Positions 2,489 to 54,543 of a stretch of 64,000 nt of DNA are shown here, one piece after another (positions within the stretch are counted from its first letter, which is position 1; every line of letters starts with the position of its first letter). The notes below the pieces were generated by a model, which saw nothing but the letters and a program-made list of their open reading frames with translations, ran no database searches and was not told where the DNA came from. This DNA is from Xanthomonas sp. (GTDB taxonomy: Bacteria; Pseudomonadota; Gammaproteobacteria; Xanthomonadales; Xanthomonadaceae), in NCBI RefSeq assembly GCF_017163755.1, contig NZ_JAFIWC010000001.1:310001-374000 (forward strand), in the 5' to 3' direction. A program made the translations under genes and the position numbers.

Positions 2489-2575
2489 TGGTGCCCAGGA
2501 GAGGACTCGAACCTCCACGGAGTTGCCCCCGCTAGCACCTGAAGCTAGTGCGTCTACCAATTCCGCCACCTGGGC
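2489..2575 (-). tRNA. tRNA-Leu (anticodon CAG)
   Basis: This is an 87-base class II tRNA with encoded CCA. The acceptor stem GCCCAGG pairs with CCTGGGC. The anticodon stem CTAGC/GCTAG holds the loop TTCAGGT, giving anticodon CAG, which reads CUG, the dominant leucine codon of this GC-rich genome. A long variable arm and the TTCGAGT T-loop are present. The sequence is identical to the copy at 3173-3259 but lies on the opposite strand, so the two copies face away from each other. Confidence 0.97.
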
Positions 2576-2589
2576 GCTGAAGGCCGCGA

Positions 2590-2618
2590 ATTCTGCGGGC
2601 AGCGTGCCGACTTGTCAA
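2590..2618 (-). promoter_or_regulatory. Promoter of minus-strand tRNA-Leu
   Basis: On the minus strand a perfect TTGACA (-35) is followed by a 17-base spacer and CAGAAT (-10), 14 bases before the tRNA 5' end. The other two tRNA-Leu copies have the same arrangement, which supports the call. Confidence 0.8.
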
Positions 2619-3131
2619 CGCGCAGGCGTGCGCGACGAAACCGGCCGTCCCGGTCGGCGCGCGGCACCGCGTACCCGCTTTGTTGCGACAGCGGCAGCGC
2701 CGCGGTCGGGCGCCACCGATAGGCGCGAGCCGCGGATGCGCGCTCGACGCGCCGGCGCACGCGCATCCAGGGTGGCGCTATCGCGGCACCGCCGGCACAT
2801 CGTGGCGCTCGCCAGGATCAGCCGGGCGCCGTTCGGTCGTCGGCAGCTTGCCGGCGCGCTGCCGGTGGTCACTGTGCAGCGCGGCCAGGCCCTCGATCAG
2901 ATACGCGCGATGTATTCAATTCAAGCCGGGTTCCCGTGCAACGATCTTCCATGGCTGCCATTTCCCTAGCGCAGCCGGCTTGGCGGCGGGCGGCCCCCAT
3001 CGAAGAGCTCATGCCTGCCGCACAGGGCGCCTCCGGTGCGGTCGACACGCGCTGCTCCGCTCTTCCCTGCCCTGTGCGACCGGGCACGGCGTGGCGCGCT
3101 TCAATCGGTGGCGCCACACGCCTGCCCATGC
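2619..3131. other. Non-coding spacer between divergent tRNA-Leu copies
   Basis: About 510 bases with no supported gene. The open frames here lack ribosome-binding sites and recognisable domains, and they run into the tRNAs. It separates the divergently transcribed tRNA-Leu genes. One AT-richer patch (around 2905-2940) stands out, but I see no known element in it. Confidence 0.6.
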
Positions 3132-3160
3132 TTGACAGCGCCGCAGGCAGGCCGCAAACT
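3132..3160 (+). promoter_or_regulatory. Promoter of tRNA-Leu copy 2
   Basis: TTGACA at 3132-3137, a 17-base spacer, then CAAACT at 3155-3160, 12 bases before the tRNA. The -35 is perfect and the -10 weak, as in the two sister copies. Confidence 0.75.
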
Positions 3161-3172
3161 TCGCCGCCTGTT

Positions 3173-3259
3173 GCCCAGGTGGCGGAATTGGTAGACGCAC
3201 TAGCTTCAGGTGCTAGCGGGGGCAACTCCGTGGAGGTTCGAGTCCTCTCCTGGGCACCA
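3173..3259 (+). tRNA. tRNA-Leu (anticodon CAG)
   Basis: An 87-base class II tRNA with encoded CCA, identical in sequence to the minus-strand copy at 2489-2575. The anticodon CAG sits in the loop TTCAGGT closed by CTAGC/GCTAG. It has its own promoter and an intrinsic terminator 25 bases downstream, so it is a single-gene transcription unit. Confidence 0.97.
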
Positions 3260-3284
3260 TCCTGAAAGACGCTCCAAGAAAAAA

Positions 3285-3307
3285 CCCGCTGCGGCGGGAT
3301 TTTTTTT
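3285..3307 (+). terminator. Intrinsic terminator of tRNA-Leu copy 2
   Basis: A CCCGC/GCGGG stem with a 4-base loop, preceded by six A and followed by a run of T from 3300. The A and T runs can extend the stem. Confidence 0.9.
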
Positions 3308-3723
3308 GCCTGCGGTTCCCGCGGCACGCGCGCTCGCAGCCGCGCCGCGGATCGCCGCACGCCTCGCTTGCCACCGTACCGGTGTTCACGCCCGCGCCAT
3401 GCCGGAGCGGTCGGTTCGGACGAGCCCTGCCCGGCTGCAGCGAAGGCGTGGCGCAACCGAATGATCCCTACGGACGTTCATCGCTCGCTAGCTCGGCGGC
3501 CGCGGCCGCCGATCCGCAGCGCGCTGCGGCGAGCGGATCGGGCATGATCGGTCGGCCGCCGCGAGCGGGATGCGGACGCGTCGAGCACAGGAAGAGGACG
3601 AAGCCTTCCGTTACACGTCACGACGGCTTCGCCGCGCGCGTGGCGAGATCCCGCATCCATGCGCCACGCGACCCGCGTGCCCTGCGCAGGCACCGCCGCG
3701 ACGCGGTCGCTGTTCGCCGCTGC
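3308..3723. other. Non-coding spacer between tandem tRNA-Leu copies
   Basis: About 415 bases without a supported gene between two tandem tRNA-Leu units. No element is recognised. Apart from the promoter and tRNA segments I see no obvious similarity to the previous spacer, so the duplication, if recent, kept only the transcription unit. Confidence 0.55.
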
Positions 3724-3752
3724 TTGACAGCCATGCGCGCAGCCAGCACACT
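3724..3752 (+). promoter_or_regulatory. Promoter of tRNA-Leu copy 3
   Basis: TTGACA at 3724-3729, 17 bases, then CACACT at 3747-3752, 14 bases before the tRNA. The flanking CTTGACAG is shared with the promoter of copy 2. Confidence 0.75.
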
Positions 3753-3766
3753 TCTCCGCCTGAGTC

Positions 3767-3853
3767 GCCCAGGTGGCGGAATTGGTAGACGCACTAGCTT
3801 CAGGTGCTAGCGGGGGCAACTTCGTGGAGGTTCGAGTCCTCTCCTGGGCACCA
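3767..3853 (+). tRNA. tRNA-Leu (anticodon CAG), variable-arm variant
   Basis: An 87-base class II tRNA with encoded CCA and anticodon CAG. It differs from the other two copies by one base: the variable arm reads CTTCG instead of CTCCG. The change turns a G-C pair into G-U, so the arm can still fold. Confidence 0.96.
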
Positions 3854-51298: not shown

Positions 51299-52993
51299 TC
51301 ACGAGGCCAGCGCCTGCTCGTGCACCCCCGCCACCGCGCGGCCGGAAGGGTCGGCCATCGTCGCGAAGCTCGCGTCCCAGGCGATCGCCGCCGGCGACGA
51401 ACAGGCGATCGACTTGCCGCCGGGCACGGTCTCGGCCGCGGCCGGGCTCGGGAAGCTGCGTTCGAACAGCGTGCGGTAGTAGTAGGCCTCCTTGGTCTGC
51501 GGCGGGTTGACCGGGAAGCGCTTGTCGGCGGCGGCCAGTTCGCGGTCGCTGACCTGTACCTCGGCGTGCGCCTTCAATCCGTCGATCCAGCCGTAGCCGA
51601 CGCCGTCGCTGAACTGCTCCTTCTGCCGCCACAGGATCGATTCGGGCAGGTAGCCCTCGAACGCGTCGCGCAGCACGCCCTTCTCCATGCGCGCCGCGCC
51701 GCCGCTGGTCTTGTCGATCATCTTGTACTGCGCGTCCATGCGCATCGCCACGTCCATGAACTCCACGTCCAGGAACGGCACGCGCGGCTCCACGCCCCAG
51801 GCCATCATCGACTTGTTGGCGCGCAGGCAGTCGTAGTTGTACAGCGCGTCGAGCTTGCGGATCAGCTCCTCGTGGAACTCGCGCGCGTTCGGCGCCTTGT
51901 GGAAATACAGGTAGCCGCCGAAGATCTCGTCGCTGCCCTCGCCGGACAGCACCATCTTCACCCCCATCGCCTTGATCCGCCGCGCCAGCAGGAACATCGG
52001 CGTGGAGGCGCGGATGGTGGTGACGTCGTAGGTCTCGATGTGCCGGATCACCTCCGGCAGCGCGTCCAGGCCTTCCTCGAAGGTGTATTCGAAGCCGTGG
52101 TGCACGGTGCCCAGCGATTCGGCCGCGATCGCCGCGGCGGCCAGGTCCGGCGAGCCCTTCAGGCCGATCGCGAACGAATGCAGGCGCGGCCACCAGGCTT
52201 CGGCCTCGTCGTTGTCCTCGATGCGCTTGCGCGCGAAGCGCGCCGCCACCGCCGCGACCAGCGAGGAATCCAGCCCGCCGGATAGCAGCACGCCGTACGG
52301 CACGTCGGTCATCAGCTGGCGGTGCACCGCGCGCTCGAAGGCCTCGCGCAGCTCCTGCTTGCTCACCTGCACGCCCTGCACCGCGGCGTAGTCGCGCCAC
52401 GGCTTGCGGTAGTACCGCACCAGTTCGCCGCTGGCGCTGTCGTAGTAGTGGCCGGGCGGGAACTGGGCGACGTCGGCGCAGCTGTCGGCCAGCGACTTCA
52501 TCTCCGAGGCCACACGCAGCCGGCCCTGCGGGTCGTGGCCCCAGTACAGCGGACACACGCCCATCGGATCGCGCGCGATCAGCGCGCGCCCGGCGGCCCT
52601 GTCCCACAGCGCGAAGGCGAAGATGCCGTTGAGCCGGTTGAGCAGCGCGGCCGGCGCGTCTTCGCGATACAGCGCGTTGATCACCTCGCAGTCCGAGCCG
52701 GTCTGGAACGCGTACGGATGGGTCAGCTGCTTCTTCAGCTCGCGGTGGTTGTAGATCTCGCCGTTGACCGCCAGCGCCAGCTGGCCGTCGGCCGACAGCA
52801 ACGGCTGCGAGCCGCCGGCCGGGTCGACGATGGCCAGGCGCTCATGCACCAGGATCGCGCCGTCGTCGGCATACACGCCGCTCCAGTCCGGGCCGCGGTG
52901 GCGCTGCCGCTGCGAACAGTCCAGCGCCTGCCGGCGCAGCGCCTGCAGGTCGTCGCCGGGTTGCAGGCCGAAGATGCCGAAGATCGAACACAT
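51299..52993 (-). CDS. asnB: Asparagine synthase (glutamine-hydrolysing)
   Basis: A 564-residue AsnB that makes asparagine from aspartate with glutamine as nitrogen donor and ATP. The mature protein starts with the glutaminase nucleophile Cys2 (MCSIFGIFG); GLRHRGPDW-like CSQRQRHRGPDWSG and NGEIYNHREL follow. The synthetase domain has the pyrophosphate loop LLSGGLDSSLVAAV and SGEGSDEIFGGYLYFH. AGGAG lies 7 bases upstream of the ATG. It is downstream of dapE, and a leader peptide plus terminator lie in between, implying attenuation control by asparagine supply. Confidence 0.96.
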   Translation of the reverse strand: MCSIFGIFGLQPGDDLQALRRQALDCSQRQRHRGPDWSGVYADDGAILVHERLAIVDPAGGSQPLLSADGQLALAVNGEIYNHRELKKQLTHPYAFQTGSDCEVINALYREDAPAALLNRLNGIFAFALWDRAAGRALIARDPMGVCPLYWGHDPQGRLRVASEMKSLADSCADVAQFPPGHYYDSASGELVRYYRKPWRDYAAVQGVQVSKQELREAFERAVHRQLMTDVPYGVLLSGGLDSSLVAAVAARFARKRIEDNDEAEAWWPRLHSFAIGLKGSPDLAAAAIAAESLGTVHHGFEYTFEEGLDALPEVIRHIETYDVTTIRASTPMFLLARRIKAMGVKMVLSGEGSDEIFGGYLYFHKAPNAREFHEELIRKLDALYNYDCLRANKSMMAWGVEPRVPFLDVEFMDVAMRMDAQYKMIDKTSGGAARMEKGVLRDAFEGYLPESILWRQKEQFSDGVGYGWIDGLKAHAEVQVSDRELAAADKRFPVNPPQTKEAYYYRTLFERSFPSPAAAETVPGGKSIACSSPAAIAWDASFATMADPSGRAVAGVHEQALAS

Positions 52994-53088
52994 GAAAAGC
53001 TCCTGGGATGTGGGGGTGCGGCGGGGTCGGGTCGGTGAATCGACAGCGTTGGAGGCCGGCAGGGCGGTCGCGCAAAAACACCGCGCAC

Positions 53089-53116
53089 AAAAAAACCCGC
53101 ATCGGCCGATGCGGGT
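53089..53116 (-). terminator. asnB attenuator terminator
   Basis: A perfect 22-base palindrome (53095-53116, half-site ACCCGCATCGG) is followed on the minus strand by seven T. It lies about 95 bases before the asnB start. The plus strand lacks a T run, so it terminates transcription heading into asnB. A 14-base copy of its 3' half lies upstream in the leader frame. Confidence 0.88.
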
Positions 53117-53174
53117 TTCTGGTGACTGGGCGCGGTGTCTTCGCTGGCGCCTAGTCGCAGACCCGCATCGGCCG
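53103..53174 (-). promoter_or_regulatory. Predicted antiterminator pairing region of the asnB leader
   Basis: RNA from 53174-53161 (CGGCCGATGCGGGT) is exactly complementary to RNA from 53116-53103 (ACCCGCATCGGCCG), giving a perfect 14-bp stem with a 44-base loop. This uses the 5' half of the terminator, so the two structures exclude each other. The upstream partner begins at codon 25 of the leader peptide and ends shortly before its stop. A ribosome reaching the stop would cover it; one stalled at the Asn codons would leave most of it free. Confidence 0.75.
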
Positions 53175-53246
53175 CGCACGATTATTCGCCAGCGCATTAT
53201 TGCGGCCGTTGGCGTGGATCGGGCGGAGGGCGGGCAGCGAGGTCAT
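53151..53246 (-). CDS. Asn-rich leader peptide of asnB
   Basis: A 31-residue reading frame between dapE and asnB with five Asn codons at positions 13, 16, 17, 21 and 22 (NGRNNALANN). Four are AAT, the minor Asn codon in this GC-rich genome; the fifth is AAC. The last codons overlap the antiterminator strand and the stop (TAG) lies 34 bases before the terminator. The Shine-Dalgarno is weak. Placement, codon content and the downstream structures match amino-acid biosynthetic attenuators such as trp and his. The peptide itself probably has no function. Confidence 0.75.
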   Translation of the reverse strand: MTSLPALRPIHANGRNNALANNRARPMRVCD

Positions 53247-53284
53247 GCGGCGACCGTAACCCGGCACGCCGGGCGACGCAACTG

Positions 53285-54412
53285 TTACGACAGCAACCGT
53301 TCGATCAGGCGCCGGTACAGCGCCGGCAGCGCCTCCAGGTCGACCACGCGCACATGCTCGTCGACCTGGTGGATGCTGGCATTGACCGGCCCGACCTCGA
53401 TGCACTGCGCGCCAAGCGGGGCGATGAAGCGCGCATCGGAGGTGCCGCCGCCGGTGCTCTCTTCCGGCGGCGCACCGGCGAACTCGCCGAGCACCTGGCG
53501 GGCGACGCTGCGCAGCCGCCCTTGCGGCGTGTAGAACGGCTCGCCGCTGCGGTGCCAGCGCAACGCGTAGTCCAGGCCGTGCCGGTCGAACAGCGCGGCG
53601 ATCTCCGCCTCCAGCCGCGGCGCGTCCCAGTGCGGGTTGTAGCGCAGGTTGAAGGCCAGCTGCAGTTCGCCGGGAATGACGTTGTTGGCGCCGGTGCCGG
53701 CGTGCACGTTGGAGACCTGCAGGCTGGTCGGCGGGAAACTCTCGTAGCCGTCGTCCCAATGCCGCGCCACCAGTTCGGCCAGCGCCGGCGCGGCCAGGTG
53801 GATCGGATTGCGCGCCTTGTGCGGATAGGCCACGTGTCCCTGCACGCCGCGGACGGTCAGCGTGCCGGACAGGCTGCCGCGGCGGCCGACCCGCAGCAGG
53901 TCGCCGAGCCGCTCGGTGGACGAGGGCTCGCCGGTGATGCACCAGTCGATGCGCTGGCCGCGCGCGGCGAACAGTTCGGCGACCTTGCGCACCCCGTCGA
54001 GCGCATCGCCCTCCTCGTCGGACGTCAGCAGCAAGGCCAGCGTGCCCGGATGCTGCGGCTGCGCGGCGACGAACTGTTCGGCGGCGACCACGAACCCGGC
54101 CACCCCGCTCTTCATGTCGGCGGCGCCGCGCCCGTACAGCACGCCGTCGCGCACCTGCGGCGCGAACGGATCGCTACTCCAGGCCTCGCGCGGCCCCGGC
54201 GGCACCACGTCGGTATGCCCGAGCAGCACCAGCACCGGGCCGCCGGCGCCATGCGTGGCCCACAGGTTGTCGACCTCGCCGAAGCGCAGCCGTTCGATGG
54301 CGAAGCCGGCACGCGCCAGCCGCTGCGCGATCAGCGCCTGGCAACCGGCATCGTCCGGGGTCACCGAGGGGCGGGCGATCAGGTCGCAGGTAAGGTCGAC
54401 GACGTCGGACAT
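53285..54412 (-). CDS. dapE: Succinyl-diaminopimelate desuccinylase
   Basis: A 375-residue di-zinc M20 hydrolase of the succinylase branch of lysine/diaminopimelate synthesis. Metal and catalytic motifs are [24 protein letters not shown] and [11 protein letters not shown]; the C-terminal ligand His is in [11 protein letters not shown]. It works after DapD, encoded 3 kb upstream on the same strand. The asnB leader begins 38 bases after its stop, so asnB may depend on a promoter within or before dapE. Confidence 0.96.
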
Positions 54413-54425
54413 GGTCTGGGGTCAC

Positions 54426-54543
54426 TGTAGGAGCGGCTTCAGCCGCGACAAGATCTGCGTGGTGTTACACCGCTTTGCCAGTGCGCTGGGCTGCTTTCCA
54501 ATGAAACCCAAGCATGACGGTCGCGGCTGAAGCCGCTCCTACA
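54426..54543. repeat. REP-like inverted pair between yffB and dapE
   Basis: The 24-base arms 54426-54449 and 54520-54543 (core TGTAGGAGCGGCTTCAGCCG) are perfect inverted copies separated by 70 bases. Same family as 43801-43890; the loop sequences differ. Confidence 0.9.

Follow-up and report, generated by a model that had tools for sequence, protein, structure and literature searches.

Organization of the region upstream of asnB

The asnB gene lies on the minus strand of the window (the whole stretch of 64,000 nt of Xanthomonas sp. DNA that was analysed), directly preceded by a region in which the initial annotation had placed a ribosome-mediated attenuator with an Asn-rich leader peptide. 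The span given for it, 52993-53246, is delimited exactly by the asnB ATG and the leader ATG, and dapE is located directly upstream of the leader on the same strand, with a gap of 38 nt. The features of the region are the following.

53276..53281, minus strand: -35-like TTGCGT of a predicted promoter, 17 nt ahead of the -10-like hexamer
53253..53258, minus strand: -10-like TACGGT, 6 nt ahead of the leader ATG, with a putative RNA start at the A of this ATG
53151..53246, minus strand: leader ORF, 31 codons plus TAG, with Asn-rich ORFs at the equivalent place in relatives
53161..53174, minus strand: region 2, antiterminator arm, a 14-nt copy of the terminator 3' half (leader codons 25-29)
53162-53166, minus strand: core of region 2, GCGGG, starting 13 nt upstream of the stop codon
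53124..53156, minus strand: inner antiterminator helix, 53156-53147 (with the stop codon) paired with 53133-53124, predicted from folds and a covarying pair
53104..53116, minus strand: region 3, terminator 5' arm plus loop, partner of region 2 or (the arm) of region 4
53095..53103, minus strand: region 4, terminator 3' arm
53089..53095, minus strand: T run of the intrinsic terminator
53000-53004, minus strand: Shine-Dalgarno AGGAG of asnB
51299..52993, minus strand: asnB, asparagine synthase B (NF006949, PRK09431.1, 874 bits against a cut-off of 499)

The leader peptide, MTSLPALRPIHANGRNNALANNRARPMRVCD, is read on the minus strand from the ATG at 53246 to the TAG at 53153-53151. The five Asn codons that had been reported in this 31-codon frame were found again, codon 13 being AAC and codons 16, 17, 21 and 22 being AAT. 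The perfect 22-base terminator palindrome described downstream, ACCCGCATCGGCCGATGCGGGT, was located at 53116-53095 and remains perfect over 26 nt (53118-53093); the run of seven T reported with it occupies 53095-53089 and shares its first T with the 22-mer, which ends on that base. The 14-base copy of the terminator 3' half at the end of the frame was likewise recovered, in codons 25-29: over the whole 64 kb, the minus strand has the 14-mer CGGCCGATGCGGGT just at 53174 (leader end) and 53108 (terminator), and the one copy on the plus strand, at 53103, is the palindrome read in reverse.

When the leader of the window was folded as naked RNA, a z of -4.2 was obtained, and none of 200 dinucleotide shuffles was equally stable. 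A simple promoter/terminator scanner run over 52500-53700 called neither promoter nor terminator; we think that the terminator was missed because the stem extension pairs the T run away. Elsewhere in the window, a perfect 24-nt inverted repeat with arms 70 nt apart was noted just upstream of dapE (54426-54543), which resembles a dispersed REP-like element, and three tRNA-Leu genes (anticodon CAG) lie within 1.4 kb at 2489-3853, one of them inverted with respect to the other two.

Conservation and distribution of the element

Regions upstream of asnB were taken from named genomes, from the family of the window (30 loci including that of the window), from 100 further members of the family or order, and from 30 genomes with a more distant AsnB. 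A purely mechanical criterion was applied to them: an ORF of 10-70 codons, with at least three Asn in 12 codons and a terminator 5-60 nt past the stop codon. Leader and terminator were both found before asnB at 168 of 171 Xanthomonadales loci, that is, 40/42 in a set made of the Xanthomonadales from the named genomes plus the window's own copy, 29/29 in the family and 99/100 in the further members, a redundant total in which the locus sets overlap (170 loci correspond to 156 distinct leaders). The initial annotation had made its reading depend on conservation of the Asn codons and of the 14-base copy in relatives, and both turned out to be conserved in these sets. Requiring at least four Asn in 12 codons, the counts were 37/42, 28/29 and 95/100, and the original criterion detected nothing in 171 reverse complements or in 67 windows shifted 700-1300 nt upstream. 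An intrinsic terminator between the leader and asnB was recognised for 154 of the 156 distinct leaders. The two misses of the 42-locus set (L029 and L034) have an Asn-rich leader with no recognised terminator, and at L183 (genome G003) neither an Asn-rich leader nor a terminator was found.

The named carriers include Xanthomonas, Stenotrophomonas, Pseudoxanthomonas, Luteimonas, Lysobacter, Thermomonas and Arenimonas. The Xanthomonadaceae setting that had been considered for the element is thus right as far as it goes, but the element reaches further, since it is also found before asnB in Dyella, Rhodanobacter, Fulvimonas and Frateuria. In other Gammaproteobacteria, outside Xanthomonadales, the search with at least three Asn gave matches at 3/36 and 3/27 loci, and that with at least four Asn at 0/36 and 1/27 (L260); these matches were judged to be probable chance ORFs, and the counts rule out a general feature of gammaproteobacterial asnB genes.

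Among the 30 genomes with a more distant AsnB, the element was present in 12, whose AsnB is 69-78% identical to that of the window, and it was not found in the other 18, which are 17 genomes with an AsnB 61-69% identical plus G003 (77%). As five of those 17 come from the family of the window itself, the leader appears to track the lineage of asnB and not the genome. No leader was found upstream of the asnB start at L240 and L244.

Some individual loci deserve mention. At L015, L021 and L042 an AsnB 75-83% identical to that of the window has no leader, and the contigs are labelled Holophagales, Rhodococcus and Deltaproteobacteria; we regard these as mislabelled, contaminated or transferred genes. 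The leader at L097 (genome G170, a small one of 3.5 Mb from the window's genus) has His at two Asn positions (NH for NN) with an intact terminator, and looks partly eroded. In a Rhodanobacter (L020:1811-1959), tandem palindromic CCCGGCCATNCATGGCCG motifs about 60 nt apart lie between the terminator and asnB, and motifs resembling CCCGGCCATNCATGGCCG were spotted by eye at L027 and L088.

Selection on codons in the leader

Before the leaders were aligned and counted, L015, L021, L042, L183 and all non-Xanthomonadales loci were dropped; L029 and L034 were left out of the later counts (among them pairing, geometry and stop codons). The leaders were sorted by the wording of their C-terminus, with patterns of our own, into class X (approximately RARPMRVCD, n = 89), class L (NNASLPRAGD, n = 25) and class R (GWAGV or WRARA, n = 42).

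The Asn columns were conserved in each class, whereas the peptide beyond the Asn cluster and region 2 was variable. Within these columns AAC and AAT interchange at the third base, with 46 AAT and 35 AAC in an example column of class X and 20 of each in one of class R. Over whole leaders (5154 codons in 156 distinct leaders), 503 AAC and 487 AAT were counted, with only 11 AAG and 5 AAA. As the third base is held to a pyrimidine, conservation at the RNA level alone is insufficient to account for the pattern, and codon identity is selected. The leaders contain a cluster of codons for the very amino acid that the product of the adjoining asnB makes, and the swapping of AAC and AAT together with the rarity of AAA and AAG reveals selection on codon identity beyond that on the RNA sequence.

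This codon-level conservation also bears on the idea that asnB is controlled by a T-box or a ligand-binding riboswitch, of which the ORF would be a by-product. Little was found that speaks for it, as Rfam returned sub-threshold matches only; among those of the leader type, Leu_leader came highest, at 22.9 bits where 50 are required. No Rfam family matched the region at its gathering score and no T-box was seen even when matches up to E = 5 were considered, so a T-box or other Rfam element was rejected, and we give a riboswitch of this kind scarcely any chance.

The choice between the two Asn codons differs in the leader from that in the gene that it precedes. At the 68 loci for which an asnB sequence was available, AAT made up 51% of the Asn codons of the leader (210/414) versus 12.5% of those in asnB (78/625), and its share was higher in the leader than in asnB at 64 of them. 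Similarly, the leader ends in TAG at 135/154 loci, while asnB does so at 4/68. The excess of AAT and TAG in the leader may be due to slow decoding, to base pairing of the stop codon or to the avoidance of structure.

Pairing between the leader end and the terminator

A core is common to all classes, with GCGGG in region 2, CCCGC in region 3 and GCGGG in region 4, while its flanks are class-specific, and region 2 and the terminator arm agree class by class. This class-matched agreement and the layout kept across Xanthomonadales support the ribosome-mediated attenuator proposed initially. The geometry is also constrained: the region 2 core is placed exactly 13 nt before the stop codon at 53/87 loci of class X, 24/25 of class L and 35/42 of class R, and the region 3 core lies at a median of 31-32 nt past it (range 25-42).

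Outside the core, the pairing score of true region 2/3 partners was 0.620, against a mean of 0.453 for swapped partners (maximum of 500 swaps, 0.506). In the core, where there is little variation and where the register of region 2, selected for best complementarity to region 3, biases toward pairing, the values were 0.961 for true and 0.951 for swapped partners. The region 2:3 duplex had a mean energy of -22.6 kcal/mol versus -14.8 kcal/mol when region 2 was shuffled; it was better than its shuffles with p<0.05 at 104/154 loci (50 were not) and with p<0.01 at 70.

The antiterminator has a further, inner helix, located between regions 2 and 3, which takes in the stop codon of the leader. In the alignment of class X, for which 40 of 78 distinct stretches were used, the pair at the first position of the stop codon (A3 columns 33-62) is UA in 22 sequences, CG in 16 and UG in one, with no mismatch in 39. 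In the 16 sequences with C at this position, the codon is CAG in 11, CTG in three and CGG in two, and the leader consequently continues to a later stop codon. Class L has an outer antiterminator pair that is GC in 16 sequences and AU in seven, again with no mismatch (0/23). On an asnB tree of the 58 loci of alignments A2 or A3 with an asnB sequence, each of these two covarying pairs changed at least four times, and 3/3 supported independent contrasts were concordant, a number of contrasts that by itself cannot reach p 0.05. One pair at a helix edge (A3 columns 22-75) showed no covariation (0/6 contrasts). In class R, register B of the inner helix gave no covariation beyond shuffles, and register A gave little excess, its score being matched by 23 of 500 shuffles. 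Of the covarying stems that had been suggested as a check, compensatory pairs were found in the antiterminator of classes X and L, and class R adds little to them. An antiterminator that excludes the terminator and has one arm within the leader was accordingly found, with a weak signal in class R.

Promoter-like signals and the upstream gene

When 155 sequences were aligned on the leader ATG, a T-rich, -35-like signal was observed at -36..-34 and a TAnnnT-like signal at about -12..-7, with C at -1 in 142 of them. TANNNT with its last T at -9..-5 was present in 81/155 leaders, compared with a mean of 4.6 in 200 shuffles. A Shine-Dalgarno tetramer preceded the leader ATG in only 22/156 cases, versus 141/156 for the asnB ATG. 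From the placement of the promoter-like element and the scarcity of Shine-Dalgarno tetramers, the leader mRNA is probably leaderless, with its RNA start at or beside the leader ATG.

A promoter-like element right ahead of the leader ATG is not what would be expected if the hairpin were a mere terminator of the upstream dapE and the ORF incidental. That explanation draws on the position of dapE in the window, on the same strand and 38 nt from the leader, and over a broader sample dapE was upstream on the same strand at 39/71 loci, in 33 of them at no more than about 160 nt from the leader. The other 32 loci carry leader and terminator too, and a terminator serving dapE only was therefore rejected. 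Moreover, neither the retention of Asn codons with a free third base nor the covariation of the leader end with the terminator region fits an incidental ORF. We consider this explanation very unlikely.

Folding of the leader with and without a ribosome

Folding was simulated with a ribosome footprint assumed to extend over 14 nt, counted from the start of the A-site codon. At equilibrium, with region 4 included and the ribosome on the first Asn codon, the antiterminator was the best fold at 46/87 loci of class X, 0/25 of class L and 3/42 of class R. As the terminator usually wins at equilibrium, the switch must be kinetic, being decided during transcription, which is also how the known attenuators work. 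In nascent RNA without region 4, a test adopted after the equilibrium result had been seen, regions 2 and 3 paired at 147/154 loci with the ribosome placed at the cluster's first Asn (82/87 in class X, 24/25 in L and 41/42 in R). With the ribosome on the last Asn, they paired at 75/87 loci of class X, 24/25 of class L and only 15/42 of class R, and with the ribosome on the stop codon they paired at no locus, by construction.

Regions 2 and 3 still paired at 124/154 loci in untranslated nascent RNA, without any ribosome, and the best fold of the full naked RNA of the window is the antiterminator. Therefore, termination by default without translation is unsupported. When whole leaders were folded by consensus, a 1:2 hairpin emerged in class L only, with seven pairs, against three pairs in class R and none in class X; in isolated leaders, the region 2 core was paired upstream with P>0.5 in 138/154.

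A model for the control of asnB

The interpretation that we favour, with a probability of roughly 0.9, is that asnB is under the control of a ribosome-mediated transcription attenuator for which charged tRNA-Asn is the signal. The parts, their conservation, the codon-level selection of Asn, the covarying pairs and the geometry are observed; from them we infer a transcription start, translation of the leader, stalling, read-through and a response to asparagine. Transcription would begin at or beside the leader ATG, with a ribosome trailing the polymerase. When charged tRNA-Asn is scarce, the ribosome would stall at the Asn codons and leave region 2 free to pair with region 3, aided by the inner helix with the stop codon, before region 4 exists; the terminator would thereby be blocked and asnB transcribed. 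When charged tRNA-Asn is plentiful, the ribosome would reach the stop codon and cover region 2, whose core is 13 nt upstream, together with the inner helix, so that regions 3 and 4 would pair and transcription would end ahead of asnB.

An asparaginyl-tRNA synthetase (AsnRS) scored above the cut-off in 40/40 genomes tested, including eight without an AsnB match, and charging of tRNA-Asn can therefore depend on free asparagine. The indirect route through Asp-tRNA(Asn) (GatCAB) could bypass free asparagine.

The leader could instead act in trans as a peptide or small RNA, or serve as a general sensor of translation, its Asn content having some other purpose. There is a precedent in Sinorhizobium meliloti, where the trpL attenuator RNA and its leader peptide are described as working in trans (PMC7298713). 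For the asnB leader, on the other hand, the codons fit the product of the adjacent gene, the pairing in cis is conserved and those parts of the peptide that lie beyond the Asn cluster and region 2 vary; a role in trans would, moreover, be an addition and no alternative to attenuation. This proposal was given a slim chance.

Under the attenuator reading, asparagine supply would set the transcription of asnB through the ribosome in the carriers, which are bacteria of soil and plants, and asparagine would join the amino acids known to be read by ribosome-mediated attenuation. The 156 distinct leaders, in three classes that vary in the number of Asn codons, in spacing and in arm sequence, also constitute a natural test series, with which models of how codon number, the choice of AAU or AAC and the position of the stop codon tune an attenuator can be tested.

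Comparison with known attenuators

In Firmicutes, asparagine genes are under the control of T-boxes, which bind tRNA directly. The signal, the charging state of tRNA-Asn, would be shared with the asnB element, and the asnB region has no T-box match. Proteobacterial attenuators were reportedly treated by Vitreschak and colleagues in 2004, who may mention asn genes. According to the initial annotation, such a control is not known for asnB in Xanthomonadaceae, and no asparagine attenuator was found in the open-access full-text literature, among the matches listed. The string 'asparagin' is absent from the main text of PMC1183508 and from the available text of PMC1262725 and of the premature-terminator survey PMC2965389.

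Attenuators of the same kind as the asnB element are listed in PMC1183508 for the trp, his, leu, thr, ilv and phe operons, none of those listed there being for asparagine, and further bacteria with his, thr and phe attenuators appear in PMC1262725. The best reading is that the asnB element adds a new amino-acid specificity, asparagine, to the ribosome-mediated attenuators. The chances are about even that it represents the first asparagine attenuator, inherited by a large part of Xanthomonadales, leaderless, with around half of its stalling codons being the otherwise rare AAU, with UAG within an auxiliary antiterminator helix, and with the antiterminator melted by the very act of the ribosome reaching this codon.

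In the scheme described for trp and his (PMC1183508), the leader has codons for the amino acid that is the product, antiterminator and terminator are mutually exclusive, and the position of the ribosome is the switch. The asnB element resembles the trp and his attenuators of Escherichia coli and Salmonella in these three respects. Unlike them, it has Asn codons and would attenuate asnB, it appears to be leaderless, and its antiterminator has an additional inner helix that takes up the stop codon, while a protective 1:2 hairpin is uncertain. With regard to its start, the closest parallel is the trpL attenuator RNA (rnTrpL) of Sinorhizobium meliloti, which is described as leaderless, beginning at the ATG of the leader ORF (PMC7298713), as the asnB leader appears to do from its sequence; trpL differs in having Trp codons, in preceding trpE(G) and in belonging to an alphaproteobacterium.
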